From a virus, in IMG/VR virus record IMGVR_UViG_3300012985_000006, positions 78,490 to 142,489 of that record: a DNA stretch of 64,000 nucleotides. The stretch is one strand, 5' to 3'. Within the stretch, counting starts at the first letter, position 1. Every line of letters starts with the position of its first letter. Below are positions 10,407 to 24,091 of the stretch, one piece after another. The notes under the pieces were generated by a model. It was given only the letters and a program-made list of their open reading frames with translations, made no database searches and was not told the origin of the DNA. The translations under genes were made by a program, and so were the position numbers.

Positions 10407-12212
10407 TTACTCAGGTCTCCTGAAGAAGGTATTCAGCAGCTCGGGCTGGATATCGTAGTCCGCCAGAATGGCCTGCGCCACGTTGGGGTCCATATCTGTG
10501 GGGATCGATTCGATATCGACATCCACCAGAGACATGAGTTCCACATTTATTCTAATTTGCGGTTCGAAGCTGCGCAACCTCTCATACTGACCTTTAGTCA
10601 AACCAGTGAGGCCTGACCGATAGACGGCATCCACAGACCCATGAGCTTGGATAAGCGCTTTCAGGACTTTCTTGGGTACACGCGGGACGCCCGGGATATT
10701 GTCAGAGTCGTCCCCGTAAAAGGCTCGGAGTTGAACCATCTTGGACGGCGCGACTCCGATAGTTTCTAGAACGGTGGTAGGGTCGAACAAGATCTCGTTG
10801 CGCGAGCCGACCGGCGGAATCAAAAGCGAAGTATCGTCATTGACGAGTTGCAACAAATCTTTATCGGTAGAGAACATGACGTTCTTCTGCCGAGCAAGTT
10901 CACGCCTAGTCAGGGTGGCGATCACATCGTCCGCCTCCTCTTCCTTGTTCCAAGCCTGTCGGACACCCAACAATGGGAGGATCTTCTTCAGGACGGTCAG
11001 ATCTGGAGGATTGGAGTTCCTTTGCGCCTTGTACTCAGAAAAACGTGACTTGCGACGCTTCGAGCTGCCGTCCCAAGTTACGTAGAGAGCAGCATCAGGG
11101 TACCTCTTCTTGAGGGACCCTAGACTACGAAGAAATCCTACCATAGCCCCTGTCGGACGTCCCTTACTGTCCGTAAGATTGGACAATCCAGGTGCGTAGG
11201 CACAACGGCACGCCAGATTGTGCCCATCCACGATCACATTTTCGACCATATCTTTTTCCTGCTTATGTGCCAAAGCCCTAGAAATACTGTCAACATCATC
11301 CCAAAGATTGCGAATCCTTTTCAGGATCCCGTCTATCTTGGTCAACTTGTCTAGCTTGGACTGCAGACTGTTGAATACAATATCACTGTAACGATCATTG
11401 TTGAACGCCACATAACTGTACAGAAGTCGGCCCCTAGATTCCCAATCCCGCATCTTCTTCAAGTGCTCTGTTTTCTCGCGGATTTGCGACAACATCTTTG
11501 AGAAAGCGGGGGTATCTTTCAGAAATAGCTGTAGATCGGAGATCGCAGTTAGCTTGCGATACCAGATTTCCACATGAGCATAGGTTCGATACGTCTGGAC
11601 CAAATCATCAAAAGGGGCGGTCCATCGTACTATAGGATAGGCTGCCATCGCCCAATCACGGAGTGCCGTTAGACGACTATTCTCATTCGATAACGGGGCT
11701 CTCTCTTCAACGACAAGGAAGCTCCTAGGAAGCGTCACCAAACTCTGTTTGGATCGCAGATCGATCCAGACCTGTACCTTCCCTTCCTCGGGAATCTCCT
11801 CGATGACTTTGGCCCCCATGTTTTTATAGGGGCCGGAAGTGATGCGGACCCTATCCCCAATACCGATCCCCTGATCTACCAGGAGTCGTATTTGCTCTTT
11901 CATTTTGTCTATAGCGGAATCTTCCACTGTGGACAATTTCCTAGCTCGACCCGTCATACCAGGCAGAGCAAGGACTGACTGGATGTATTTAGTGTTCTCT
12001 AGGCGAAAGTATTCCTGAGGAGCTCTGTCAAGCCGAACGAACACATACCCTTCCATCAGTATGTGGACGGACCGCGCATCTGCTATTTGAGTGACAGCCG
12101 CTGGAACAAACACCTCGGCTCTCTTCAACGAACGGAGGATCGCCGATTTGATAATCTCAGGATCTTCCTGATCACCCCTAGAGGTGAGCTCCAATACGAC
12201 CCACGACCCCAT
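10407..12212 (-). CDS. NusG-domain/5'-3' exonuclease (FEN) fusion
   Basis: A 601-residue fusion. Residues 1-95 resemble the NusG NGN domain (SWVVLEL strand, LMEGYVFVRL hairpin, ALPGMTG). Residues 117-170 form a KOW domain (GIGDRVRITSGPYKNMGAKV). A helical linker spans about 180-320. From about 322 to the end is a polymerase-I-type 5'-3' exonuclease / FEN: VDGHNL, WDGSSKRR, EEEADD, STDKDL and FYGDDSDNIPG carry the metal-binding acids. The FEN domain removes RNA primers and flaps; NusG binds RNA polymerase. The start is the ATG sharing the A of the dnaX stop codon. Joining a transcription factor domain to a replication nuclease is unexpected. Confidence 0.9.
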   Translation of the reverse strand: MGSWVVLELTSRGDQEDPEIIKSAILRSLKRAEVFVPAAVTQIADARSVHILMEGYVFVRLDRAPQEYFRLENTKYIQSVLALPGMTGRARKLSTVEDSAIDKMKEQIRLLVDQGIGIGDRVRITSGPYKNMGAKVIEEIPEEGKVQVWIDLRSKQSLVTLPRSFLVVEERAPLSNENSRLTALRDWAMAAYPIVRWTAPFDDLVQTYRTYAHVEIWYRKLTAISDLQLFLKDTPAFSKMLSQIREKTEHLKKMRDWESRGRLLYSYVAFNNDRYSDIVFNSLQSKLDKLTKIDGILKRIRNLWDDVDSISRALAHKQEKDMVENVIVDGHNLACRCAYAPGLSNLTDSKGRPTGAMVGFLRSLGSLKKRYPDAALYVTWDGSSKRRKSRFSEYKAQRNSNPPDLTVLKKILPLLGVRQAWNKEEEADDVIATLTRRELARQKNVMFSTDKDLLQLVNDDTSLLIPPVGSRNEILFDPTTVLETIGVAPSKMVQLRAFYGDDSDNIPGVPRVPKKVLKALIQAHGSVDAVYRSGLTGLTKGQYERLRSFEPQIRINVELMSLVDVDIESIPTDMDPNVAQAILADYDIQPELLNTFFRRPE

Positions 12213-13630
12213 CAAGCCGCCCCTACGCCCAGTATTTTCAGACGTTGTTCAAAGCTGATGCGCCACTCTTCTGCGGTTATCAAGTCGGCACGACCCTTAG
12301 GGGTGTCCTTGAAAAGGACTCGTGTATCGGCGTCGTGCGTCCCACGAGGCATATCCTTCCGTACCGCCTTGTCATCCAAAGACGTAAGAGCCCGCGCATC
12401 GTCAGAACCCAAGTTACCCACCTTCCGATCTGAGGGGGGTGGGCTAGAAGGGCGTTTCGTCTCTGCAACCGGAGGGGTGGGCAGAACAACTTCCACCTTT
12501 GCGACAGGAGCTGCGGTTGGAGCGACTGTGGAGGCCGTTTCCTGTGCTGGAGATGCCTGAACCTGCACCAAGACTGTTTTGGTCGACGTATCTTTGGCTG
12601 GTGGCGTTCCAGACACACATGACATTACATCACATAGTAAACGGAGGCGGGTCGCCTTCGAGGTACCTAGGAAGTGCTCGGCCAGCTGCAACAGGCTATC
12701 CCCATATTGGAGTTGCAGCTTCTGGGCTAACGGTTTGTCGACGTAAGTATAATCCACGTACATGTTGTTAGCCATGCGATAGCTGGTCATGGCTGCCTCT
12801 GCCAAACCTTCGTATACTGCCTCAGGTCCAACCTGATCGCAAGTCATCTCTACGAGTTGAATAGCTGTAGAGGGAGTTCCTAACGAGAGTAAGATCTCAT
12901 AATATTTCGAAACCACCGACAAATTGAGATACTCTCTCACTGAGGCGCTGGTTATTTCACCCAGTTGGGCAATCATCTCCAAGGTATTGATGATGTCGCG
13001 CACATGGCTGTGCGATGCGTCAATCACCGTCAGTACAGCATCTTCCTCAAACCCCACCCCTTCTTGGGTCAGAATCCAACACATCCTAGTGAGCAGATCC
13101 TCACGAGGGATGGAGCGAATCTTATATTCCTCACACCTAGATCGGATCGGACCTCTGATCTTTTCTGCCTCAGTTGTGCAAAAAATGCCGACAAATTTGG
13201 CTTCCTCGATGGGTTTTAGCAACACATCTTGGGAAGCGGCGCTCATCCGGTGCATTTCATCGAACAGGTAGATACGTTTTTCTGCACCTTGGATGGCGAA
13301 AGGAAGGTCTTTGACGATCTTCCTCATGTGATCGATTGTGCCGTTTGAAGCCGCGTCCGTCTCCGTAAATGCTTGGCTGGTGTCTGCGAAAACCTCTTTG
13401 CAGTTGTTGCAGACATTGCACGGCTCCCCATCCGATTGGAGATCCTGGCAAAGCATCGCTCGGGCGAGGATACGGGCAAGGGTCGTTTTTCCTTGCCCGT
13501 GCCCGCCGCTAAAGATGTAGCTCGTGTCGAGAGCCGTACCTTTGACCAACCGCGCCTTGAGAACTAGGGCAGCACTTTCCTGGCCCAATACGTCGGAAAA
13601 ACGTACTGGGCGGTACCGCTTGTCCCACAT
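12212..13630 (-). CDS. dnaX: Clamp-loader ATPase, DnaX-like (gamma/tau)
   Basis: A 472-residue AAA+ clamp-loader subunit. It starts WDKRYRPVRFSDVLGQE as in bacterial DnaX; Walker A is GGHGQGKTT, the Zn site is CNVCNNC with an upstream Cys, Walker B is LFDEMH, and the sensor region contains an SRC arginine-finger motif (RSRCEE). A lid domain follows and the tail (about 360-440) is a disordered Pro/Ala/Thr linker. With HolA- and HolB-like genes at 33-35 kb it can form a full clamp loader that opens the beta clamp encoded 3 kb downstream. Overlaps the NusG-FEN gene by one base. Confidence 0.95.
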   Translation of the reverse strand: MWDKRYRPVRFSDVLGQESAALVLKARLVKGTALDTSYIFSGGHGQGKTTLARILARAMLCQDLQSDGEPCNVCNNCKEVFADTSQAFTETDAASNGTIDHMRKIVKDLPFAIQGAEKRIYLFDEMHRMSAASQDVLLKPIEEAKFVGIFCTTEAEKIRGPIRSRCEEYKIRSIPREDLLTRMCWILTQEGVGFEEDAVLTVIDASHSHVRDIINTLEMIAQLGEITSASVREYLNLSVVSKYYEILLSLGTPSTAIQLVEMTCDQVGPEAVYEGLAEAAMTSYRMANNMYVDYTYVDKPLAQKLQLQYGDSLLQLAEHFLGTSKATRLRLLCDVMSCVSGTPPAKDTSTKTVLVQVQASPAQETASTVAPTAAPVAKVEVVLPTPPVAETKRPSSPPPSDRKVGNLGSDDARALTSLDDKAVRKDMPRGTHDADTRVLFKDTPKGRADLITAEEWRISFEQRLKILGVGAA

Positions 13631-13631
13631 A

Positions 13632-14126
13632 TCAAACCTCGGTCGTTTGCAGCAAGTCCTCTGCCAGATTCTCTTCCTCAGTCTCCACCAAACTCCCCAG
13701 GTCTAGTTTCTGGGCGATAGAGACGAATCCTGCCAGACCCTGATGCCAAGCACCGTGGCGAGATAGGATTGAAGAGAACTCTTGAACGTCTGGCTCTCTT
13801 GTGGACCAATTCATGGTGCCGGTCTTCTCGTCTTCCTCACCAGTCAGATGCTCAAGAAGGTGGTCCACCAGAGCGGTCCTTTGAGACTCCGATAGTTCCT
13901 GCCACAGGTCGGCCGCCACCTCGATTACGAAGTCTCGTTCGAGGGCCCACTCAAAGTAACCGCTGAACTTCTTGACCTTGCCGTAAAGAGGGCGACCACC
14001 TTTATTGGAGGCCTTGTCAACGAACACGTAGCTGATCCGAGCATCCGCCAATTCAGGGTGGTAGTTGGGGATCAGGCCCGCAGCTATTTTGGCAACGTCT
14101 TCAGCTTCACTGTATATTTTGGCCAT
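13632..14126 (-). CDS. Phage metallopeptidase-family protein, altered active site
   Basis: A 164-residue protein resembling the small 'putative phage metallopeptidase' family: YVFVDKASNKGGRPLYGKVKK, an IEVAADLWQ strand, SESQRTALVDHLLEHL and a C-terminal EPDVQEFSSILSRHGAW block. In relatives the central helix carries HExxH; here it reads HLLEH, so the catalytic Glu is replaced and the protein may be inactive or altered. It follows the primase-like gene with a 22-nt gap and precedes dnaX by 1 nt. Its role in the phage is unknown. Confidence 0.7.
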   Translation of the reverse strand: MAKIYSEAEDVAKIAAGLIPNYHPELADARISYVFVDKASNKGGRPLYGKVKKFSGYFEWALERDFVIEVAADLWQELSESQRTALVDHLLEHLTGEEDEKTGTMNWSTREPDVQEFSSILSRHGAWHQGLAGFVSIAQKLDLGSLVETEEENLAEDLLQTTEV

Positions 14127-14148
14127 TGTCTCTATTTCCTTAGCTGGG

Positions 14149-14847
14149 TCAAGTTCCCAGATTCTTTAGGTATACACCGAATTTATCGTCTCCGAGGATT
14201 TCCCAAAGGTCAGATGGGTCTTTAGCCTCGCGACCATCAAAAAACTTCAAGCGGGGGAACTTGGGGATGTGCACCCGAAAGTCGGGGGCGTCATGTTGGG
14301 CAAGTTCTTTGGCCCCTTTCCACCCTGTAGGGTCCATGTCGTACCCCAACCAAACGTTTCGGACGTTGCGTTTGAGGAACCGCAACAAGGCTGTGCTGAC
14401 AGCGGCGGTCATCGTGGGGATGATGTTAGGATAGACCCTTTGGATGGGAAAAAGGTCAAACGCACCTTCGACAATCCAGATTGACTGGCTTTGCCACACA
14501 TGAGGCATCGCCTGAGCGAGCCCGAACAGTACCGGCTCATCATGGTCCAACAAATAGTCGGTATATCCTTTGGCGGCTCGATCCAGGTGTCTAAACTGTA
14601 CCCCCTTCACCTGCCCCAAGGCATTGGTCATCGGGAATACCAACATGTCGTTCAGACGTCTCCCTTGCCAACACCACTCTAAGAAGTCGGCCGCCCCCTC
14701 CATGGGCGGAAGACGCCTATTTAGATACCCTATCTGATAGCTGGAAATCTGGGTGTCGGTCACACCTCGGGCGTATAAGGCTTCGGCTACCTGTTCCGTC
14801 ACTCCAGTGGCCGCAAACTCTACCAGAGTATCAAGCCACCGAGTCAT
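14149..14847 (-). CDS. dnaG: DNA primase catalytic (TOPRIM) protein
   Basis: A 232-residue primase core that makes RNA primers for lagging-strand synthesis. The N-terminal part has the RNA polymerase-type block (FPMTNALGQVKGVQFRHL, as in DnaG). The TOPRIM fold has the acidic motifs WIVEGAFDLF (catalytic Glu and Asp) and LGYDMDPTG (DxD). The usual N-terminal zinc-binding domain and the C-terminal helicase-binding domain are missing, so it is shorter than a host DnaG. It overlaps the 204-residue upstream gene by 17 nt, and lies in the replication operon. Zinc-finger function could be supplied by another protein. Confidence 0.85.
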   Translation of the reverse strand: MTRWLDTLVEFAATGVTEQVAEALYARGVTDTQISSYQIGYLNRRLPPMEGAADFLEWCWQGRRLNDMLVFPMTNALGQVKGVQFRHLDRAAKGYTDYLLDHDEPVLFGLAQAMPHVWQSQSIWIVEGAFDLFPIQRVYPNIIPTMTAAVSTALLRFLKRNVRNVWLGYDMDPTGWKGAKELAQHDAPDFRVHIPKFPRLKFFDGREAKDPSDLWEILGDDKFGVYLKNLGT

Positions 14848-15445
14848 GACCTATTAGGATAAGGGAACGATCCGCCTGACACAACATGATTGACAGGAAT
14901 TCCCTAGACCTCATGTAGTGCCCCACCAATCCAGGGGAGGTGCTCAGTATGGCTTGACCCTCCGCCAAAGCATCAGTAACTAGGATTAGGATGCCCTCCG
15001 ATTCGGCCACATACCCCCTAGAAAGAGTTAGCCGATCCACTTCATCTTCTGACAATTCGGCGCCGCAGATTCTAGGTAAGTCGGAATACGGGAGCAACAG
15101 ATAACGGGCTTCTAGCTGAAATGAGGTCATTTTCCGCACGGCATCCGACAGATTGACGCACCGATTATCCCAGCCTAGACTCTTAGATAGAGTACCCACA
15201 GTCTCAAATAAGCCAGCCACTACGGGGTTTTCTTCGTCTATAGGACATTCGAAAAACCCTTGTAGGACGAAGGGCTCTGACTGAAGAGGATCAGTGCGCA
15301 GAAAGGTCTGGAGCAATCGCCCCTTCGTATTGGAAACGACCCACGGACCTCTCGACTTGTCCATGGGTCGTTTATTGGCGATTGGAGTGGCTTCCTTTCG
15401 AAGCCGTTCAGCAATCAAGATTCGTTCAAGAACCGAGATTTTCAT
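14831..15445 (-). CDS. Hypothetical protein in replication operon
   Basis: A 204-residue soluble protein of unknown function. It has a GLFETVGTLSKSLGW helix, an RYLLLPYSDL strand, and alternating hydrophobic strands near the C-terminus (GILILVTDALA, RSLILIGHD) that could be a nucleotide-binding-like fold, though no Walker or Rossmann glycine motif is seen. It overlaps the upstream gene by 20 nt and the primase by 17 nt. Because it is locked between the primase and SbcC-type genes, a replication or repair role is likely. Confidence 0.65.
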   Translation of the reverse strand: MKISVLERILIAERLRKEATPIANKRPMDKSRGPWVVSNTKGRLLQTFLRTDPLQSEPFVLQGFFECPIDEENPVVAGLFETVGTLSKSLGWDNRCVNLSDAVRKMTSFQLEARYLLLPYSDLPRICGAELSEDEVDRLTLSRGYVAESEGILILVTDALAEGQAILSTSPGLVGHYMRSREFLSIMLCQADRSLILIGHDSVA

Positions 15446-15953
15446 TCTTGGGTGCCGAAAGTAGAGGGGTCAAGTCGGGTACTGTGATGACGGGTTCAAT
15501 TCGAATCCTCTTAAACCACAACAACACCCGCTTCCACCAAGGGATAGCAAGTGTTTGACTGATGCCTGCCGCCCACAACAGCTCGTGCACGCCAGGCATA
15601 TTCAGTTCCAACCATTCCGGATTGGAGGTTTGGGACACGAACTCTCTGAAGAGGGACTCTTTGGTTTGCAAAGCAGTGAAGAAGGGGCATCGCTTAGCAT
15701 CGATAGGGTCTTCACAGATGGTCCCTTGCCATTCCTCAGGGTTCTCAGAATTGAGCATACAGAGGCCAATAGTGTTGGGGGTAACAATGATAGGTAGCCC
15801 CACCCTATGTTCCTCGGGACGTGGTTCGACAGGTTGCCTGTGGTTGTGGACGCAGAGATGCGGTAATCTCTGGCTAGCCTCCAGGACCCTACGGTCCAGT
15901 TCGGCGCACAGCAAGCCCCTAGCTTTGGCTAGTATTTCCTCGGGAGTCTTCAA
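15426..15953 (-). CDS. Hypothetical Cys-containing protein
   Basis: A 175-residue protein. The start used is TTG at 15953, which overlaps the TGA of the SbcC C-terminal gene (TTGA), and removes a stretch that only encodes the overlap. Four cysteines lie in the middle: LCVHNHR, IGLCML, TICEDPIDAKRCPFF. The spacing (Cys-x..-Cys-x(7-8)-Cys) is reminiscent of primase large-subunit or Fe-S-type Cys sets but is not diagnostic. The C-terminus has a short basic and aromatic stretch (PWWKRVLLWFKR). Function unknown. Confidence 0.65.
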   Translation of the reverse strand: MKTPEEILAKARGLLCAELDRRVLEASQRLPHLCVHNHRQPVEPRPEEHRVGLPIIVTPNTIGLCMLNSENPEEWQGTICEDPIDAKRCPFFTALQTKESLFREFVSQTSNPEWLELNMPGVHELLWAAGISQTLAIPWWKRVLLWFKRIRIEPVITVPDLTPLLSAPKNENLGS

Positions 15954-16627
15954 GAGGGCACCTTCTTCACTATCAAAAATGGTGTTACACCGTCTTCCTC
16001 GAAGACTTCTGAGCAACGGTAGACATTATGTGCATGTTCCTTGTAGGCGGGCTTGTGGGTGACCAGCAATAGGTCGAACCCCAACTTCTCGGCCACGCCT
16101 CTCAGGAACTGACTGGTGTAGTCAACATACTCATCTGATACTGCTCCCAGCGATTCATCCAAGATCAGGACCGGCCACAGCTTCAGACGCTTGATAGCCA
16201 AGACCCTCAAGATCAACGATACGACGGTAGAAGGTCCGCCACCGAAGGCTTCGAGCGGTTTACCTCTATGGGAACGATGGCTGCCCTTCAACCCTCTCCG
16301 AATGAAGAAGTCGACCGAGATTTTGTTGTGCTTTGGGCCAACCTCAGATTCAAGGCTCAGAATCTGATCAGTGAAAATGGTCTGCAACCCTTCAGTTGCA
16401 ATCTTTTCCACAGATCGTACCTGCTTCTCAACCAATTGATCCAAAAGTGCGCGGAAGAGCTCCACCACCTTGGACAGGATTTCTATTTCCTGATCCAGGT
16501 GGAGTACTTCCGCTTTCTTGGCCCGCAACTCGTCCGCGGCCCTATCTCGTAGGACCGTCAGACGAGTTGCAGAGGCTTCGACGCTCTTTACCCTTGCTTC
16601 GAAGGCATGAAGCGTGTCACTAGGCAT
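15950..16627 (-). CDS. sbcC-C: SbcC/Rad50 C-terminal ATPase half
   Basis: A 225-residue protein equal to the C-terminal half of a Rad50/SbcC ABC ATPase. A coiled-coil arm fills about 1-90. After it come the ABC signature (FGGGPSTVVSLIL), Walker B (VLILDESLGAVS, catalytic Glu in DES) and the H-loop (LLLVTHK). There is no Walker A or N-terminal lobe, which are in the 20014-21252 gene, so the ATPase is assembled from two chains. It overlaps the clamp gene by 40 nt. With SbcD it would process DNA ends and hairpins. Confidence 0.88.
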   Translation of the reverse strand: MPSDTLHAFEARVKSVEASATRLTVLRDRAADELRAKKAEVLHLDQEIEILSKVVELFRALLDQLVEKQVRSVEKIATEGLQTIFTDQILSLESEVGPKHNKISVDFFIRRGLKGSHRSHRGKPLEAFGGGPSTVVSLILRVLAIKRLKLWPVLILDESLGAVSDEYVDYTSQFLRGVAEKLGFDLLLVTHKPAYKEHAHNVYRCSEVFEEDGVTPFLIVKKVPS

Positions 16628-17841
16628 TCGTAGGAACCTTCTGGGGAAATAACCACTTCACCGTCAGCATTCAGGTTGAAGCGGTCGAAAGTACGGAAGA
16701 AGGCAGCCTCTTTGGGGCGAGTCTTACTCGCCGGTACGAGCGCCGTCCTAAGCTCGACAGCATACCCCTTCGCCGATTCAAACAGGCTGATGAAGTGATC
16801 CACATTGACGTTGAATTCGAACGACGGGATAGAATCCGACCCATCCTCAAGCTTCAGACTGTCGACCCCAACAGGAGCGCTGGTGATGTCGTCCGAGCCA
16901 TCAATTGCCTTGAAGTGTAGGAATCCGTCCTTGTAGATCAGACGGATCTTATCCTGATCGGTCGACAAAACCGCTCGCATATGCTTGAGAGACTTGAGGA
17001 TCAACTCCTTCGACACCATCAGGACCGACTTATCCTGGCTGGTGGCGTAGTACTGGAAACGGCTATGCTCCTTGACATGGCTGGCCCAACCGATCACAGC
17101 GCCCTCGGTGAGAGCCCCATTCTCGTCAGGGATCAACTCGATCAAGAAGTTGGAACCTTCGCCAAAGCGAACCTTGACCTCTGAACCACACTTACCCAGG
17201 AAGTTGTTGAGGTAGTTCAGATTTTCAATGTGGACCCCCAACCCCTTACCCTTCAGGGCTTCACAAGAGTAGTAGGCCGCACGGGTACCATCTGCACCAA
17301 ACATGATACCGTCCCCCTTCTCCCACTCGGGACGGCTGGTATCGAAAATCTGGAGGGTGTTGAGATGTTCATCTGTCTTGACCGCCTCAGAGGGTGTGAA
17401 AGCAGCAATACTCTTCAAAGCGTCTCGAAGGATGGCCGTGTGAAAGGTCCTCTCTTCTGTGGCCTCGCTGAACTTACGGACCAGAGTGGTGAAGTTGGTT
17501 GGATCGTAGGTCGACAGATCAACCTTGGCCCCACCTTCTGTCGTGTACTTGAGCCAATGGCGTTTCTCGTCCTGACCCGACTCCAGTTCGATCCAGCCAG
17601 CCACGTACTTCAAGGAGCCAATCTTGTCACTAGGGAAGGTGAAGCCGCCCTCCCCCTCAATCGATTCCACAGCCAGCTCAGAACGGATGTACCTCACACC
17701 ATCGTGAGAATGGACGTACACCTTACCACCGTTGGTGGCAATCAAGAAGGCGGTGTCGGCACTCCCGCGTAGTTTTGGCTTGACGATATTGGCAATCTCT
17801 AAGGCCTTGCTCAAGGCCTCTACTGTGGTTTTGATCTTCAT
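16588..17841 (-). CDS. dnaN: DNA polymerase III beta sliding clamp
   Basis: A 417-residue sliding clamp that would encircle DNA and tether the polymerase. Three-domain DnaN architecture is indicated by the length and by repeated strand patterns: MKIKTTVEALSKALEIANIV at the start (as in DnaN), GWIELES in domain 1, a FTTLVRKF helix in domain 2, and ELILKSLKHMRAVLST in domain 3. The C-terminus ends ECLVTRFMPSKQG, as in the terminal clamp strand, which usually ends with MPM-type residues. DnaX-, HolA- and HolB-like loader genes are in the same window. The start is ATG with a short gap after the coiled-coil gene. Confidence 0.88.
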   Translation of the reverse strand: MKIKTTVEALSKALEIANIVKPKLRGSADTAFLIATNGGKVYVHSHDGVRYIRSELAVESIEGEGGFTFPSDKIGSLKYVAGWIELESGQDEKRHWLKYTTEGGAKVDLSTYDPTNFTTLVRKFSEATEERTFHTAILRDALKSIAAFTPSEAVKTDEHLNTLQIFDTSRPEWEKGDGIMFGADGTRAAYYSCEALKGKGLGVHIENLNYLNNFLGKCGSEVKVRFGEGSNFLIELIPDENGALTEGAVIGWASHVKEHSRFQYYATSQDKSVLMVSKELILKSLKHMRAVLSTDQDKIRLIYKDGFLHFKAIDGSDDITSAPVGVDSLKLEDGSDSIPSFEFNVNVDHFISLFESAKGYAVELRTALVPASKTRPKEAAFFRTFDRFNLNADGEVVISPEGSYECLVTRFMPSKQG

Positions 17842-17862
17842 TTTGGGGTGTGTCTTTCAGGG

Positions 17863-18138
17863 TCAGGTGGTACTGAAGGCTGCTAGAGCCTGTTCTACTT
17901 CGCAGAGCTTCTTGTCGAAATCTTCGATCATGGCCGTCACATCGGCCTGCAAACGATCACGGTCTTCCTTGAGGCGTTTTGGGTCATAGCCCGCTTCCTC
18001 TATTTCCCTCTTCAGAGACACCAACTCTTCCTTCTTGGCTTGAAGAAGACCGCTGAGAGTTGACTTTTTGGTGTTGGCGGCCTTGTACCGCTTGCTTAGT
18101 TCTTCGACTTTTTCGCTTATTTGCTCTAGTGAGTTCAT
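17863..18138 (-). CDS. Small coiled-coil protein beside SbcC genes
   Basis: A 91-residue protein, start ATG at 18138, overlapping the Cas4-like gene by 4 nt. Almost all of it is heptad-like (EKVEELSKRYKAA..., LQAKKEELVSLKRE, RLQADVTAMIEDF), a dimeric coiled coil. It lies between the SbcCD-type genes and the clamp and resembles an isolated piece of SbcC arm, so it may be a third SbcC fragment that joins the two ATPase halves. This is inference; a scaffold or recombination accessory is the alternative. Confidence 0.7.
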   Translation of the reverse strand: MNSLEQISEKVEELSKRYKAANTKKSTLSGLLQAKKEELVSLKREIEEAGYDPKRLKEDRDRLQADVTAMIEDFDKKLCEVEQALAAFSTT

Positions 18139-19040
18139 TTGTGTTTCCTCTTTTTCTGTTGAGCCTGAATATCCTGCTGTACCTTGAAACCCTTGGGGCA
18201 GATAGCTTCGACAGCGTAAGGACAAAACCTGCAATTCTCAGGCTTTGGGTTCGGGGTGAAAGTCTCCCTAGCTTTGGAGAAGGGCGCCGTTGGTAGTACG
18301 ACTCTCTCTTTTGCCTTGATCTCCTCGATCGTATCCTTGACCTGTGTGAAAAGAGACTTGATCTCCCCTTCCGAGGTACTGACCCAATCGATGCTCTCCA
18401 CAGGCTCGTAGCGCCAGAACAAGAAGGCCAGCTTGTCTGGCAACTGTCCAGTCTGAAGCTGATACAACATAGCATACCACTGGAGTTGGCGAGGATCGAC
18501 GTACTTGTCCCGATGTTTGGAACCTTTCCCGTCAACAATCAACAAATCGTTGTTGGGGGCGGTCCGCTGAATGATGAAGTCCGAACGTCCTCCCCAAATG
18601 TCCCCATTAGGAGCTTTGAAATCCAACTTGGTCTCGGCTTCCGCCCTGGGGCCTAACAGTCGGTGGTACCGGATGATGCGAAGACCTCTAGGGATCGCAT
18701 CCCTAACATCTGCTATCAGCTCTTCCTTGTTGAGGTACATGCCATATTGATTCTGGTTGGGCCCGTCACCCTTCCACAACAACACGCCGCCCTTGGAGGT
18801 CTCTTTGGCAATGCATTCGTTGATCTGAGACTCCACTCGGGAAAGCATTATTTTCTGCACCTCCGGCTGGCGCCAGAGCTGTTCCACGTAGAACTGCTCA
18901 AACAGCTGTCCCACCACAGAGCCGTAAATCGACCCTAGACGATCATCAGGACCCTCGACCGTGGTCTTGGCGATGTAGCCGTTCCAGTAGTCAAATGTGC
19001 AACTGTCGTATTTCTTGAAACCACTATAGGATAGGTACAT
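18135..19040 (-). CDS. Cas4/RecB-type PD-(D/E)XK nuclease with Fe-S cysteines
   Basis: A 301-residue nuclease. An early Cys (KYDSCTFDYW, residue about 14) and a C-terminal CRFCPYAVEAIC cluster form the four-cysteine Fe-S site known from Cas4, AddB and Dna2-like proteins. The PD-(D/E)XK core is seen in GGRSDFII (motif II), IVDGKGSKH (motif III, D-x-K) and RQLQWYAML (motif IV Q/Y). It should cut single-stranded DNA ends with a metal ion. Sits within an operon of SbcD-, SbcC- and RecA-type genes, so its job is recombination, not CRISPR; no array is present. Confidence 0.88.
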   Translation of the reverse strand: MYLSYSGFKKYDSCTFDYWNGYIAKTTVEGPDDRLGSIYGSVVGQLFEQFYVEQLWRQPEVQKIMLSRVESQINECIAKETSKGGVLLWKGDGPNQNQYGMYLNKEELIADVRDAIPRGLRIIRYHRLLGPRAEAETKLDFKAPNGDIWGGRSDFIIQRTAPNNDLLIVDGKGSKHRDKYVDPRQLQWYAMLYQLQTGQLPDKLAFLFWRYEPVESIDWVSTSEGEIKSLFTQVKDTIEEIKAKERVVLPTAPFSKARETFTPNPKPENCRFCPYAVEAICPKGFKVQQDIQAQQKKRKHK

Positions 19041-20017
19041 CAGGCTCTGGCCTTATCTAGGTAGAATTTGGCTCTGGTTATCACTTCAGGAGCAAAGGAG
19101 TCCAAAGCCTGTAAACTGCTATCGACATTCTGAGGTTGGCCCTCTTCATTGGCCGCAATCGCATCGTTCTCTAGTTGAATGACGAACTGGTCGATCGCCA
19201 GAGATTCCTTCTCCAGACGTTCTTTGCGCTCGACATCAAATACTTCCTCCGCAGGCAATACCGTCAGGGGAAGGGCTTTGACGCTGATTTGGCCTTGATC
19301 TACCTCTATCAAAGCTACTTTCGGCGTTCGTTCCAGGTTTTCTTTGACCAACGCCCCTCGGGAAACAGCCCCTTGATTGACGAAGTACCGTCCCTCTAGC
19401 TGAACGATTCCCTGGTCTCGATGCCAATGCCCAAAACACAGGACATCGAACCCACCCTCGACCAACATACTGTCGTAGCGGAACACCGGCTCCCCAAAGA
19501 AGTCTTCGACATTTGGGGGAGGGTTCTCACCCGCCAAGGCATGGATGATCGCAATCATGGCGGTATCGCCAGGCTGCTTTCTGAAGGCTTGTATCTCCCT
19601 CAGGGTGCGTTCCGAGCTGTAGGGGAACCCTACCACTCTAACCTGCTCCAATCCGTCTATGAAGACCTCTTCTCGGAGCTCCTTGAACACCCCTGACTCG
19701 AACAGGACCCCCAACGGCTGTTTGAGGATGGTGGTCAGATTGTTACCTACAATGTCGTGATTGCCCTCTACGCAATAGACAGGACAATGGTAATCATTGT
19801 GGATCGACATCACGTCTTTGACCAAAGCGTGAGAGTTCCGCAAAGGGTCCTTCACATGAAAGAAGTCCCCTCCGTCCAAGACTGCAATGGCCCCATGATC
19901 CTTGGCCATCTGGCCTATTTGGACCAGATTGCTTCGAATCTCGGCAGGGTAGTCCCCTTTCCAAGAGGCGGGGCCCTTGTCGGCAGCGTGAACATCCGTT
20001 CTAAAGATGAACCTCAC
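19040..20017 (-). CDS. sbcD: SbcD/Mre11-type nuclease
   Basis: A 325-residue calcineurin-like metallophosphoesterase. Metal ligands are seen in RTDVHAAD (motif I), LDGGDFFH (II), VEGNHDI (III), IIHAL (IV) and CFGHWHRDQ (V). This is the Mre11/SbcD set. A C-terminal region of about 70 residues follows the nuclease domain and should contact the SbcC coiled coil. Stop and start codons overlap with the Cas4-like gene by 1 nt and with the SbcC N-half by 4 nt. It would act with the split SbcC to trim DNA ends and hairpins. Confidence 0.92.
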   Translation of the reverse strand: MRFIFRTDVHAADKGPASWKGDYPAEIRSNLVQIGQMAKDHGAIAVLDGGDFFHVKDPLRNSHALVKDVMSIHNDYHCPVYCVEGNHDIVGNNLTTILKQPLGVLFESGVFKELREEVFIDGLEQVRVVGFPYSSERTLREIQAFRKQPGDTAMIAIIHALAGENPPPNVEDFFGEPVFRYDSMLVEGGFDVLCFGHWHRDQGIVQLEGRYFVNQGAVSRGALVKENLERTPKVALIEVDQGQISVKALPLTVLPAEEVFDVERKERLEKESLAIDQFVIQLENDAIAANEEGQPQNVDSSLQALDSFAPEVITRAKFYLDKARA

Positions 20018-21252
20018 GAGGCCTCCTTGTGTAGGTGTTGCCCGCTAATTGGTTGTGTGCACGTCGGACAGACGCCCAAAGCTTCCAGATCCAGAACGAT
20101 GCTTTCCTCAAGCTTGACGGCGGATGCCAAGTCCTTCTGGACGGACAGAAAGCTCGCTTCGGTGTTCAGCACTTTGCTGATGAAGGAATTTACCTTCCGT
20201 AAGGCGTTCAACTTCGCTTCAAAGAGTGCGGGGTCTTCAGCGTTCGGCACAGCACCCCAACCAGCCCAACCATCCAGAGTAACCTCCAAGCCGTGCAGTC
20301 TGGCCTGCAACGTCTTGATCTCCAACAGCTGCTGGTAGGTCTGCCTGATACGGGTGTCGTCAGGCAGCTCGATCTTGGAGATTCCGGTCAGGTTGCGTAT
20401 TTTGGGAGCAATCTCCGACACTCTAGAGTAGAAACCGTCCAAGTCCGAGTGCTTGTCAGAAGTCTCCCTCAATGCTTCGTGATCAGGCAGGGAGGGTGCA
20501 ACTGCAGTCGTCAACGTACCGATTGCTTGGGTCAGGCTCACGGCCTTTGTCATGAAGGAGCTGAGACGTTCGATAGATTCCTGGGACTTCTTCACGTTAG
20601 CCAGACGCTCTCGTAGGCCATTAGCAGTAGAGACCACCCCATCTAGACCGATGTAGATGTCTCCAATCTTTTCCAGAGTCTCAACGTCTTGGGCACGCAC
20701 CTTACGAGTGGCGACGTCTTCTTTTCGGTCTTTGACCGCCATCGCCATCGCGACATTGACCTTCTCCAATTGAGCCACGTCGCTCAGAACATCAGCCACC
20801 ACCGTGCCGGCTTTGTTGAGCAGAAAGATTGGCTCGAACTGATCGGGGATCTGAATCAGTTCTTTACCTTCTCCTACCTTTACCTGATCGAACATACCGT
20901 CAAGGAACGGAGGGGTGCCGCGTTCCAGACCTTCGTAGATCTGAGAGGAGCTCCCTTGGACAACAATGTACCGGTTGACGGCATCACCCTTTTCCCAAGT
21001 CAATTCAAGAGCAGAGGTCTTGATGCGAACTCGGGAAAAGCATTTACATTTCTTGGTGCCACGGATCGCCCTATCGCAGGACGATCCGTGACGGACGAAG
21101 TCAGTTCCGACGGCACCTGTGAGAGCCATTTGAACAGCCCTCACAAGCGCACTTTTCCCAATATTCGAACGACCCACGATGGCCGAGAATCGATCGATCG
21201 CCACAGACGTGTGACGAATAGATTGGAAATCGGTGACTTCTATTTCAATCAT
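20014..21252 (-). CDS. sbcC-N: SbcC/Rad50 N-terminal ATPase half with Zn hook
   Basis: A 412-residue protein equal to the N-terminal half of SbcC/Rad50. It begins IEIEVTDFQSIRHTSVAID and has Walker A GRSNIGKSALVRA, a Q-loop segment (IQIPDQFEPIFLL) and then a long coiled coil. It ends 14 residues after CPTC (Cys395 and Cys398), the zinc hook that lets two coils dimerise. The signature, Walker B and H-loop are on the separate 225-residue protein (15950-16627). A normal SbcC is a single chain of about 1000 residues. Overlaps sbcD and recA by 4 nt. Confidence 0.9.
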   Translation of the reverse strand: MIEIEVTDFQSIRHTSVAIDRFSAIVGRSNIGKSALVRAVQMALTGAVGTDFVRHGSSCDRAIRGTKKCKCFSRVRIKTSALELTWEKGDAVNRYIVVQGSSSQIYEGLERGTPPFLDGMFDQVKVGEGKELIQIPDQFEPIFLLNKAGTVVADVLSDVAQLEKVNVAMAMAVKDRKEDVATRKVRAQDVETLEKIGDIYIGLDGVVSTANGLRERLANVKKSQESIERLSSFMTKAVSLTQAIGTLTTAVAPSLPDHEALRETSDKHSDLDGFYSRVSEIAPKIRNLTGISKIELPDDTRIRQTYQQLLEIKTLQARLHGLEVTLDGWAGWGAVPNAEDPALFEAKLNALRKVNSFISKVLNTEASFLSVQKDLASAVKLEESIVLDLEALGVCPTCTQPISGQHLHKEAS

Positions 21253-22559
21253 TCGGCAGCTTCGTCGTCCTGACTGTCGTCAGAATCGCTTTCGATCACT
21301 TCTTCCACCACAGGGGTGTCCGATACGGAGTCGTCGCTCAAGTCGTTCCCGCCCAGAGCGTCTTCCACAGTGCTGATCATCGACTCCTCATCAGAGATGT
21401 CGTCGACAGGCTCGTCATCCTTGACAGCTACCAAGACTTTGCGCTTGATTTCCTCAAAGATACCGTGGTTCTTGCACAGATAGTCGCGGAACTTCTCCTT
21501 GGAACGTTCCTCATGTTCTCCGTACGATAGAGTGGAACCGCTCTTCTTGATGATCCTATTGGCTACTCCAGACTCAATCAGGCTGTAGTAGTTGTCGATG
21601 CCTTGACCGTACCTGATGAACAGGTCTGTGGTGTGGCCGGCCGTGCTATCGAGGCGGGTCTTGATGATTTTGGCTTGGGTGTGTTGACCGAAAGGTGAGC
21701 GCTTCTTCTTACCAGTGTGACGGTCGGTCACCTCCTTCACCTCACTTCGAATCTTGGTGAATTGGATACGAAGGTGGGCAAAGTACTTGAAGGCTTTGCC
21801 GCCCGCCGTATTGTGGTCACCAGATGCCTTGGCGGTCGTACTGATGACGGCACGATTCTGGTTGATGAACACGAGAGCGGTGCCCTTCGGATTCTTGGAC
21901 ACGTTGGGGTCGTTCAGCCACGTTGCAATCTTGGGCAGGACTTGGCTCAGAGCTCTTGCCTGAGCACCAATCCTCGCCGGATCGTCGAAGCCCTTTTCCA
22001 GCTCTTCTTTCGGAACCATCGCCGCCACCGAGTCAGCGACGATCAGGTCTACCTTGGCCTGGAGTCCGATCAGAATCATCTTCCAACCCTCTTCCATGGT
22101 GTCAGGTTGGAACAACAGCAGCTTGTCGGGATCGAACGATACCCCGATTGAACGAGCGTACTTCTGTGAGAGGGCCTTTTCGAAGTCCAGGAACATCGCC
22201 AGGCCGCCCTGACGTTGGACCTCTGCTACTGCTTCCAAAGCCGCAGTCGTCTTGCCTGAGGCTTCCGCCCCAAACAACTCAGTGTAGCAACGACGGGGGT
22301 ATCCAGGGCAAATGGGCGATTTCCCATCTTCCGCCATGGTGCCACCAATCAGGTGGTCGAGAAGGAACGATCCCGAACTCACGAACGGGCGACTCCCTCT
22401 GTCCTCGCCTACTATTTTCTTGCCAGTAACTTTGAGTACGGCCGCTCTAGCAGCGGCGGCATTCTTTGCCGAGTCCTCGCTAGCCTTGGAGCTGGCTTTT
22501 GGCGTTACTTTAGTATCTTGACCTTCAGGACCTTCTGGTGGTTTCTTTCGAACAGCCAT
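21249..22559 (-). CDS. recA: RecA recombinase
   Basis: A 436-residue RecA that would form filaments on single-stranded DNA and drive strand exchange. Motifs include Walker A GAEASGKTT, IDLIVADSVAAMVP (Walker B), FINQNRAVIS (L1/L2 border) and the phage-like extended C-terminus, which is very acidic (SDDSVSDTPVVEEV..., DSDDSQDDEAAE). The N-terminus is basic (KKPPEGPEGQ) and Ala rich. It overlaps the RuvC-like gene by 55 nt, so the two are co-translated. The acidic tail probably modulates DNA binding, as in E. coli RecA. Confidence 0.93.
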   Translation of the reverse strand: MAVRKKPPEGPEGQDTKVTPKASSKASEDSAKNAAAARAAVLKVTGKKIVGEDRGSRPFVSSGSFLLDHLIGGTMAEDGKSPICPGYPRRCYTELFGAEASGKTTAALEAVAEVQRQGGLAMFLDFEKALSQKYARSIGVSFDPDKLLLFQPDTMEEGWKMILIGLQAKVDLIVADSVAAMVPKEELEKGFDDPARIGAQARALSQVLPKIATWLNDPNVSKNPKGTALVFINQNRAVISTTAKASGDHNTAGGKAFKYFAHLRIQFTKIRSEVKEVTDRHTGKKKRSPFGQHTQAKIIKTRLDSTAGHTTDLFIRYGQGIDNYYSLIESGVANRIIKKSGSTLSYGEHEERSKEKFRDYLCKNHGIFEEIKRKVLVAVKDDEPVDDISDEESMISTVEDALGGNDLSDDSVSDTPVVEEVIESDSDDSQDDEAAE

Positions 22560-23224
22560 TTGATTAGTTCCTCTTCTTCAGGGGTGATTGGTATGTTGGA
22601 GAACCGGAAGAACCTGTCGTCTTCTCGGAAGATCAGTCCTGCCTTGACTGTCCGACCCGCTTTCGCACCCTTTTGGTAGGTGTGCACTCTTGCGAATGAG
22701 TGCTTCTCTGATGGGGTCAGATCTTCTTCTGTGATGATCTTGGATTCCAGCTTCCAGAAGCGGGCAGCTGACCTGGCCAGCAGGTATGCATCCGCTTCAT
22801 TGTGGTTCCACTTTTTGAATTGAGTGTCGGCTCTGGCAGCCTCCAGCATGTCCGACTTGTCCATTGTGCCGCGACGGACCTTTGGGTCCTGTTTGGCCAA
22901 CATCTTTAGGGACAAGGGATCGAAGTAGACTACATCCTTCCGACACAGATAAAGGGCTTCATTGACGTACAGGAATAGGCCGTACAACCCTTCTGAAAAC
23001 GACTCACCAAATGGCGGGGACTCTACCCCAACAGCTTCAATTGGGTATCGAAGTATCAGACTGATCAATTCATCCCGAATCGCCACGTAACGTTCTATGA
23101 ACAGAGCGTTGGCGTCAGTGATGAACTGACCTTTGGCCAAGACTCGGCCGGGCCCCACAACATCAGAGTTATGAACTGCCCAGCCGAATCCGGTCAACGA
23201 CGGGTCAAGACCTAGAGTGATCAT
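22505..23224 (-). CDS. RuvC-like Holliday junction resolvase
   Basis: A 239-residue RNase H-fold resolvase. The first acidic site is in ITLGLDPSLTGFGWAV (Asp7), the second in AVGVESPPFG (Glu), and the third in KWNHNEADAYLLAR near residue 145, matching RuvC spacing. A C-terminal extension of about 90 residues (with KVLKVKILK at the end) is unique to this gene. It would cut recombination junctions before packaging. Upstream of recA, with 55 nt of overlap. Confidence 0.85.
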   Translation of the reverse strand: MITLGLDPSLTGFGWAVHNSDVVGPGRVLAKGQFITDANALFIERYVAIRDELISLILRYPIEAVGVESPPFGESFSEGLYGLFLYVNEALYLCRKDVVYFDPLSLKMLAKQDPKVRRGTMDKSDMLEAARADTQFKKWNHNEADAYLLARSAARFWKLESKIITEEDLTPSEKHSFARVHTYQKGAKAGRTVKAGLIFREDDRFFRFSNIPITPEEEELIKWLFERNHQKVLKVKILK

Positions 23225-23248
23225 GCGGGGGTCGGACCCCCTCCCTGA

Positions 23249-24091
23249 TCAAACCTGATCCATCAAATTCCCGAAATCTCCGTCCATGGAGGTGTCGACG
23301 CCACCCCCATCAGAGATCCCGAGTTTGAGCTTCAGGTCGGCCGTGCTGAGTTCACGGAAGGGCACCAGTTTTTCGTAGATCGGGAAGGCCTTCTCCAGAA
23401 CCCTGGATTGGATCTTCTCGTTACGCCAAATGGCCTTGCCTGCCCCGTCAATATCGAAGTTCTGATACTCCGTATTGGTGCACTTCAGACTGAGGTCTTG
23501 CATGCAGATGTTGAGGTCATTCGACCGCAAGCTCTCTGCTACCTCATGTAGGCGACGAAACACCTTGTTGCTGAAGCGCCAGGGAACGACAGTCCAATTG
23601 GTGGCCAGTTGCTCCTTGATCGGCTCGCCTTCACGAGTGGTGGGGTAGACGATCAGGCAAGTGGTGAAGTAGGTCTTCACGTCGCCCAAGCTCTTCCACA
23701 CCTGATCCGCCTCGGAACCGTCCTTACCCAGGCGAGAGACGACATAGCCGACTCCCTCCTTGTAGTGTGCCTCTATTTTCTTGAAGCGCACATTGGTGAG
23801 GTCCAGCTTGTCCGACTCGGTTAGTTGATCTACCGATTTGCCCAGCGCCTCTGCCTTTTTGGCAAATTGCGCTTGGACAGCAGCAACTATTTCTTCCTTC
23901 GTAGCGGCCGGATTCTTCTTCTTGACTGCTCGAACGACGGCAGCTTCCAACGGATTGAAGTACACGAGGGAAACACGGTAGGTGCGCCCCTTCTCCCCTT
24001 TGAACCAATCTAGTTGATTCGAACGGGCGTGCTTCTTGTCTTCCGCACCAAGCCCCACATCGTCATCGTAGCTTTCGAGATCTATTTCCAT
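23249..24091 (-). CDS. T4 gp32-like single-stranded DNA-binding protein
   Basis: A 280-residue protein with features of phage ssDNA-binding proteins of the gp32 type: a basic and aromatic OB-like core (RTYRVSLVYF, TYFTTCLIVYPTT, VPWRFSNKVFRRLHEV, ICMQDLSLKCTN) and a short acidic tail (DTSMDGDFGNLMDQV) that usually recruits other replication proteins. Two Cys residues and no zinc-binding CxxC are seen, unlike T4 gp32. It is the first gene after a 100-nt control region and is followed by RuvC-like and RecA genes. The fold is inferred from pattern and context. Confidence 0.7.
   Translation of the reverse strand: MEIDLESYDDDVGLGAEDKKHARSNQLDWFKGEKGRTYRVSLVYFNPLEAAVVRAVKKKNPAATKEEIVAAVQAQFAKKAEALGKSVDQLTESDKLDLTNVRFKKIEAHYKEGVGYVVSRLGKDGSEADQVWKSLGDVKTYFTTCLIVYPTTREGEPIKEQLATNWTVVPWRFSNKVFRRLHEVAESLRSNDLNICMQDLSLKCTNTEYQNFDIDGAGKAIWRNEKIQSRVLEKAFPIYEKLVPFRELSTADLKLKLGISDGGGVDTSMDGDFGNLMDQV

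Follow-up and report, generated by a model that had tools for sequence, protein, structure and literature searches.

Background

SbcC/Rad50 is taught as a single chain that folds back on itself to join its two ATPase lobes. The lobe of Rad50 that carries Walker A and the lobe that carries Walker B and the signature each require the other to form the ATPase, the serine of the signature contacting ATP, and phage T4 uses gp46/47 in recombination and replication. SbcCD is near-universal among jumbo phages (PMC7824862), and the one-chain SbcC of Salmonella phage SPN3US is essential (PMC5105663). Here we analyse a phage locus in which SbcC appears to be encoded in pieces. It lies in bases 78490-142489 of the IMG/VR virus record IMGVR_UViG_3300012985_000006, a stretch of 64,000 nucleotides that we call the window; the record, of 142,489 bp in total, is a phage contig and may be partial. 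A first-pass annotation had proposed that the SbcC of the window is split into separate ATPase halves and that a free coiled coil of 91 residues might be a third piece of its arm. Our results point to an SbcC of three obligate chains that acts together with SbcD, that is, to a phage SbcCD (Mre11-Rad50) in which SbcC would be assembled from an N-half, a coil and a C-half, a reading to which we give a probability of about three in four.

Results

Identity of the two SbcC halves

The profile of the N-half, built from 53 sequences, matches the N-lobes of Rad50, SMC, RecN and OLD proteins, and its positions 338-396 separately match the Rad50 hook structures 6zff and 1l8d, the CPTC motif being in all probability a zinc hook. 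The profile of the C-half (65 sequences) matches the C fragment of Pyrococcus furiosus Rad50 end to end (E 9e-10), and both NCBIfam and PHROGs concur with the identities of the halves. No Walker B is present in the N-half and no Walker A in the C-half; because the former offers only Walker A and the latter only Walker B and the signature, each should need the other for ATPase activity. Two polypeptides are enough to assemble the lobes, as P. furiosus Rad50 shows: the entries for its catalytic domain (1f2t, 1ii8 and 3qkr) contain an N chain and a C chain, A and B, which our N- and C-half profiles match separately. Q138 is conserved among N-halves and is assigned to the Q-loop by motif. The signature is not of the LSGG type with serine, reading FGGG in the window and RGGG in some relatives; that of T4 gp46 reads FSEGE, and the serine position is not a strict requirement of the family in phages.

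Only 14 residues remain beyond the hook in the N-half of the window, and the hook-bearing N-halves of our census end 7-21 residues past it. The split sits exactly at the place where the arm of the motor ought to turn back. The phage split form is a variant of SbcC/Rad50 that shows the N-lobe, the C-lobe, the CxxC hook and the SbcD partner of this family and lacks its defining single chain. The coordinates, strand and motifs that the first-pass annotation had given for the N-half (Walker A and zinc hook) and for the C-half (signature, Walker B and H-loop) were confirmed, as was the presence between them of SbcD, a Cas4-like nuclease, the coil and a clamp, by gene order and family matches; its proposal of a split SbcC is strongly upheld by the matches to the Rad50 N-lobe, hook and C-lobe and by conservation in many phages.

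Distribution and age of the split

Searches of IMG/VR with alignments yielded 67 C-half loci and 46 N-half loci; a search with a single N-half protein gave no match, loci being found only once alignments served as queries. These searches used short conserved peptides; the number of loci is hence a minimum, and a relative with fused halves could lie outside the census. After removal of copies 100 distinct loci remained, 51 of them with the complete order recA, N-half, SbcD, nuclease, coil, clamp and C-half. Relatives were searched for fused as well as split forms, and no open reading frame holding both halves was found among the 100 loci, nor in a set from Bacilli obtained by scanning genomes with one Bacillus C-half.

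An independent contig of 155 kb (L006) keeps the gene order of the window, with identities of 58% for the N-half, 79% for the coil and 84% for the C-half, and a phage of 485 kb (LR745208) has the same order at about 22-32% identity, with ThyA and other genes inserted. The cultured Bacillus phage vB_BboS-125 encodes an N-half ending in CPLC (gp32), an AP2-domain protein (gp33), a coil of 78 residues (gp34), a C-half (gp35), gp36 and SbcD. This last gene, of 326 codons, falls in an annotation gap between gp36 and gp37 (L145:9247-10227; NC_048735.1, about 22423-23403). The order N-half, coil, C-half, SbcD is found in all 32 Bacilli loci (Bacillus and Paenibacillus phages or prophages) that hold N-half, coil and C-half, comprising vB_BboS-125, 27 IMG/VR loci and 4 GTDB loci from Bacillus-group hosts, some of which are copies of the same phage. 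Nine of the 32 (L145, L153-L156, L170, L172, L173 and L179) carry an AP2/HNH-type homing-endonuclease-like gene between N-half and coil, absent from the rest; the split point may be a site of mobile elements, a hint at how the gene broke. Microcystis phage Mvi-JY20 encodes RecA, N-half, SbcD, a coil of 94 residues and C-half, with neither nuclease nor clamp between them, these two being linked genes that are missing from some split systems. One further locus (L034) keeps recA, N-half, coil, clamp and C-half, and no SbcD or nuclease was detected among these genes.

In a tree of the C-lobe from 34 split and 8 one-chain phage proteins all split forms fall on one side of a branch (support 100/98), Mvi-JY20 being the outermost of them. 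The split probably arose a single time, in a distant one-chain ancestor; the length of some one-chain branches leaves this single origin likely and not proven. Judged from these comparisons, the split is an old, conserved and widespread phage architecture and not a peculiarity of one genome, as it had been treated in the first-pass annotation.

Every piece is under purifying selection. Between the window and L006 the ratio of nonsynonymous to synonymous substitution rates (dN/dS) was 0.18 for the N-half, 0.13 for the coil and 0.05 for the C-half, with high dS, and among Bacilli pairs coil (0.03-0.09) and C-half (0.02-0.11) are about equally constrained on single-pair estimates. A search of the 142,489-bp record and of 7 relatives of 155-536 kb revealed no full-length SbcC, these contigs being possibly incomplete. 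A recoded stop was rejected, since N-halves terminate in TGA, TAG and TAA.

The free coil and the geometry of the arm

Window-type coils (n = 57) are about 90 residues long and consist of a heptad-periodic helix, a turn and a second helix, with Pro53 in the turn in 55 members. Their profile scores 41 bits against the coil of vB_BboS-125 (HHalign 97%) and weakly, 11.5 bits, against that of Mvi-JY20; by profile comparison, the window-type and Bacillus coils are homologous. A divergent coil with an EFGVsT turn fills the slot between nuclease and clamp in 6 loci that had formerly seemed to lack one, and it occurs elsewhere in other loci and next to the nuclease in Microbacterium phage Magritte. 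No coil gene was found beside the one-chain phage SbcCs at 8 loci (best profile score 5.3 bits). Because coils of the window type or the divergent type accompany the halves and none accompanies these one-chain proteins, the coil tracks the split SbcC closely, being near-universal alongside the halves. Assignment of the coil to defence, scaffold or other known families gave only coiled-coil-prone matches and was rejected. A strict coupling of coil and nuclease was rejected as a rule, the Bacilli phages and Mvi-JY20 having the coil without an intervening nuclease.

We expressed arm balance as the distance from Walker A to hook minus that from hook to Walker B, counting tail, coil and C-half in split forms; in one-chain proteins Walker B positions were picked by eye among the listed candidates. 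In 8 one-chain phage SbcCs the first distance exceeds the second by 1-36 residues. Among split forms the shortest (type B, n = 3; Mvi-JY20, n = 1) show a difference of 17-27 with the coil and of 103-121 without it, the coil bringing these 4 loci inside the range of one-chain proteins. The distance from Walker A to hook in window-type N-halves is quantised, clustering at 320, 364, 408 and 448 residues (steps of about 42-44) at constant length of coil plus C-half, and prolines recur in the N-arm every 40-44 residues. The N-arm looks to be built from repeat modules.

Evidence against the three-chain reading and alternative explanations

Several observations weigh against a coil that forms part of the arm in three-chain SbcC. 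The N-arm of most lineages is 49-232 residues longer than coil and stub together, and nothing else changes to compensate; this is at odds with a plain antiparallel pairing along the full length, and extra N-arm modules must fold on themselves or loop out. A strict match between N-half and coil arm lengths failed: N-arms come in lengths of about 275, 320, 364, 408 and 448 residues, and the coil stays at about 90. No match of the coil to Rad50 arms is specific or stands out from the coiled-coil background, those to descending arms being weak and coiled-coil-prone (E 0.002-0.006). The halves are scattered in Magritte and in Tunturiibacter phage Tunturi_5; in Magritte the coil adjoins the nuclease with N-half, C-half and SbcD elsewhere in the genome, and the N-half (gp155, L002:8001-9053) has no CxxC, and in Tunturi_5 no coil was found using the type-B profile. 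The first-pass suggestion of a third arm piece is sustained in part, though well: gene order and geometry argue for it, through the near-constant company of the halves, the absence beside one-chain SbcCs, the invariable position between N and C in colinear lineages and the balancing of the shortest arms, but similarity to Rad50 does not.

These same points would favour an SbcC in two parts with the coil as an accessory, be it a recombination mediator or a partner of the PD-(D/E)XK nuclease or of SbcD: the coil gene overlaps the nuclease gene in the window and adjoins it in most loci, including Magritte where the halves are far off, there is no specific match to the Rad50 arm, and coil length does not follow the N-arm. 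Nevertheless, N-half, coil and C-half (Bacilli) and N-half, SbcD, coil and C-half (Mvi-JY20) keep their order without the nuclease, one-chain SbcCs have no such neighbour, the coil balances short arms and UvsY is not among the Pfam matches listed for it, and we regard an accessory role as unlikely. That the halves are unrelated ABC proteins, one OLD- or RecF-like, and not one ATPase is very improbable, even though the N-lobe profile has its top single match in the OLD family and the halves lie apart in Magritte and Tunturi_5; each half lacks the Walker motif that the other has, the N-half bears a Rad50 hook, the C-half aligns with the Rad50 C fragment over its whole length and both co-occur with SbcD.

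The homing-endonuclease-like genes at the junction of N-half and coil in some Bacilli loci could suggest that the pieces are made separately and later joined by trans-splicing introns or a split intein, but no Rfam intron family was detected in window positions 14000-23500 at E 0.1, and the short tails of N-halves are variable, differ freely between phages and show no intein-like extension, making such joining scarcely credible. As splits of long genes are frequently artefactual, a frame error from sequencing or assembly, or a pseudogene in decay, has to be weighed as well; to this we give practically no weight, since other genes sit between the halves, the arrangement recurs in cultured phages, in genomes of bacterial isolates and in assemblies made independently, purifying selection acts on all pieces and catalytic residues are invariant, so that relatives with the same split refute it. 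The frame error that the first-pass annotation had raised against itself is contradicted by L006, which independently repeats the order, together with the selection on the pieces, and the independent full-length SbcC that it had also raised did not turn up in the record or the 7 relatives.

Gene order in the window

The operon lies on the minus strand in the order RuvC-like protein, RecA, SbcC N-half, SbcD, PD-(D/E)XK nuclease, coil, clamp, SbcC C-half, two genes without family and TOPRIM primase (Table 1). From RecA to the coil successive genes overlap by 4, 4, 1 and 4 bases; coil and clamp are 21 bases apart, and clamp and C-half overlap by 40.

Table 1. Genes and motifs of the split SbcC operon, in window coordinates
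Feature	Position	Strand	Basis
RecA/UvsX recombinase, first gene of the RecA-to-C-half run	21249..22559	-	RecA E 4e-43
SbcC N-half, 412 aa: N-lobe, arm, zinc hook close to C-terminus	20014..21252	-	profile matches and motifs
Walker A GRSNIGKS, residues 27-34	21151..21174	-	G32 and K33 invariant in 53 N-halves
Zinc hook (predicted) CPTC, residues 395-398	20059..20070	-	both Cys invariant in 53 N-halves
SbcD (Mre11-type nuclease), 325 aa, GTG start	19040..20017	-	Metallophos E 6e-10; phrog_100 SbcD E 3e-9
PD-(D/E)XK nuclease, RecB/Cas4-like, Cys 14, 270, 273, 281	18135..19040	-	PDDEXK_1 E 7e-14; phrog_69
Free coil, 91 aa: helix, turn at GYDP, helix	17863..18138	-	alignment of 57 members
Sliding-clamp-like protein	16588..17841	-	phrog_947 E 2e-6
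SbcC C-half, 225 aa: short arm stub and C-lobe	15950..16627	-	P. furiosus Rad50 C fragment E 9e-10 across 37-213
ABC signature FGGG (within AFGGG at 127), LSGG-like, serine replaced	16235..16246	-	motif in C-half alignment
Walker B VLILDE, residues 153-158	16154..16171	-	D157 and E158 invariant in 65 C-halves
H-loop VTH, residues 189-191	16055..16063	-	H191 nearly invariant in C-half alignment

The TOPRIM domain of the primase is a separate gene of 232 codons (14149-14847, minus strand). The two overlapping genes that precede it (14831-15445 and 15426-16016) match no family and may be further pieces of the primase, in which case replication genes would be split here too. A frame of 602 codons (10407-12215, minus strand) joins a NusG-like N-terminus (PF02357, at the cut-off) to a complete 5'-3' exonuclease (PF02739 and PF01367); it begins with TTG, its true start is unsure, and a fusion of antitermination factor and FEN would be unusual.

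Discussion

Placing these results into the model of a three-chain SbcC, the N-lobe and C-lobe would dock to form one ABC half-site, and two units of N-half, coil and C-half would come together as a dimer, with ATP between them and SbcD attached to the base of the arm. The coil would supply part of the missing descending helix, packed on the N-arm, and the hook would lie at a chain end and not in a loop, zinc pairing two hooks. Such a complex may process DNA ends and hairpins for RecA-driven recombination and replication, as gp46/gp47 does in T4; given that role and the essential SbcC of SPN3US, a function beside RecA is by analogy likely to be the same here. A further proposal, doubtful although possible, is that a separate protein, which can be exchanged, makes up the descending arm, so that the arm can open or be re-gated as the coil leaves and binds, arm length being tuned in modules of about 44 residues in one chain only. 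If true, this Rad50/SMC-type machine could be opened and would resemble no one-chain form.

A conserved phage clade without the link that joins the lobes offers a natural dissection, in which lobes, arm and hook can be expressed or removed singly, and it opens to direct test an old question, whether arm continuity and hook signal to the ATPase head. Annotation would also be corrected, because the pieces are filed as exonuclease, ATPase, chromosome segregation protein and hypothetical protein, and genomes seemingly without SbcC may carry it in pieces. Homologues are already in databases: PHROG 16465 ('exonuclease') holds those of the N-half and 15167 ('ATPase') those of the C-half, under separate labels not linked as one split SbcC, and gp32, gp34 and gp35 of vB_BboS-125 are homologues too, the coil gp34 being labelled 'hypothetical protein'. 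A split SbcC or Rad50 was not described in any of the open literature that we searched, subscription papers lying outside the search.

Among known systems, the Mimivirus-type fusion of Mre11 and Rad50 is also an altered viral chain architecture, but there (PMC3175470) the two subunits are fused, which is the opposite change. The two-chain crystals of P. furiosus Rad50 likewise have separate lobes forming one domain; they are nevertheless an engineered truncation without arms, whereas the phage form is natural and has arm, hook and coil. With E. coli SbcCD, P. furiosus Rad50 and T4 gp46/gp47 the locus shares the ABC lobes, the arm, the CxxC hook, the SbcD partner gene and the recombination setting. 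It differs from these one-chain proteins in its three genes with the hook near a chain end, in a signature whose serine is replaced (FGG or RGG) and in an arm that grows by steps of about 44 residues in one half only.
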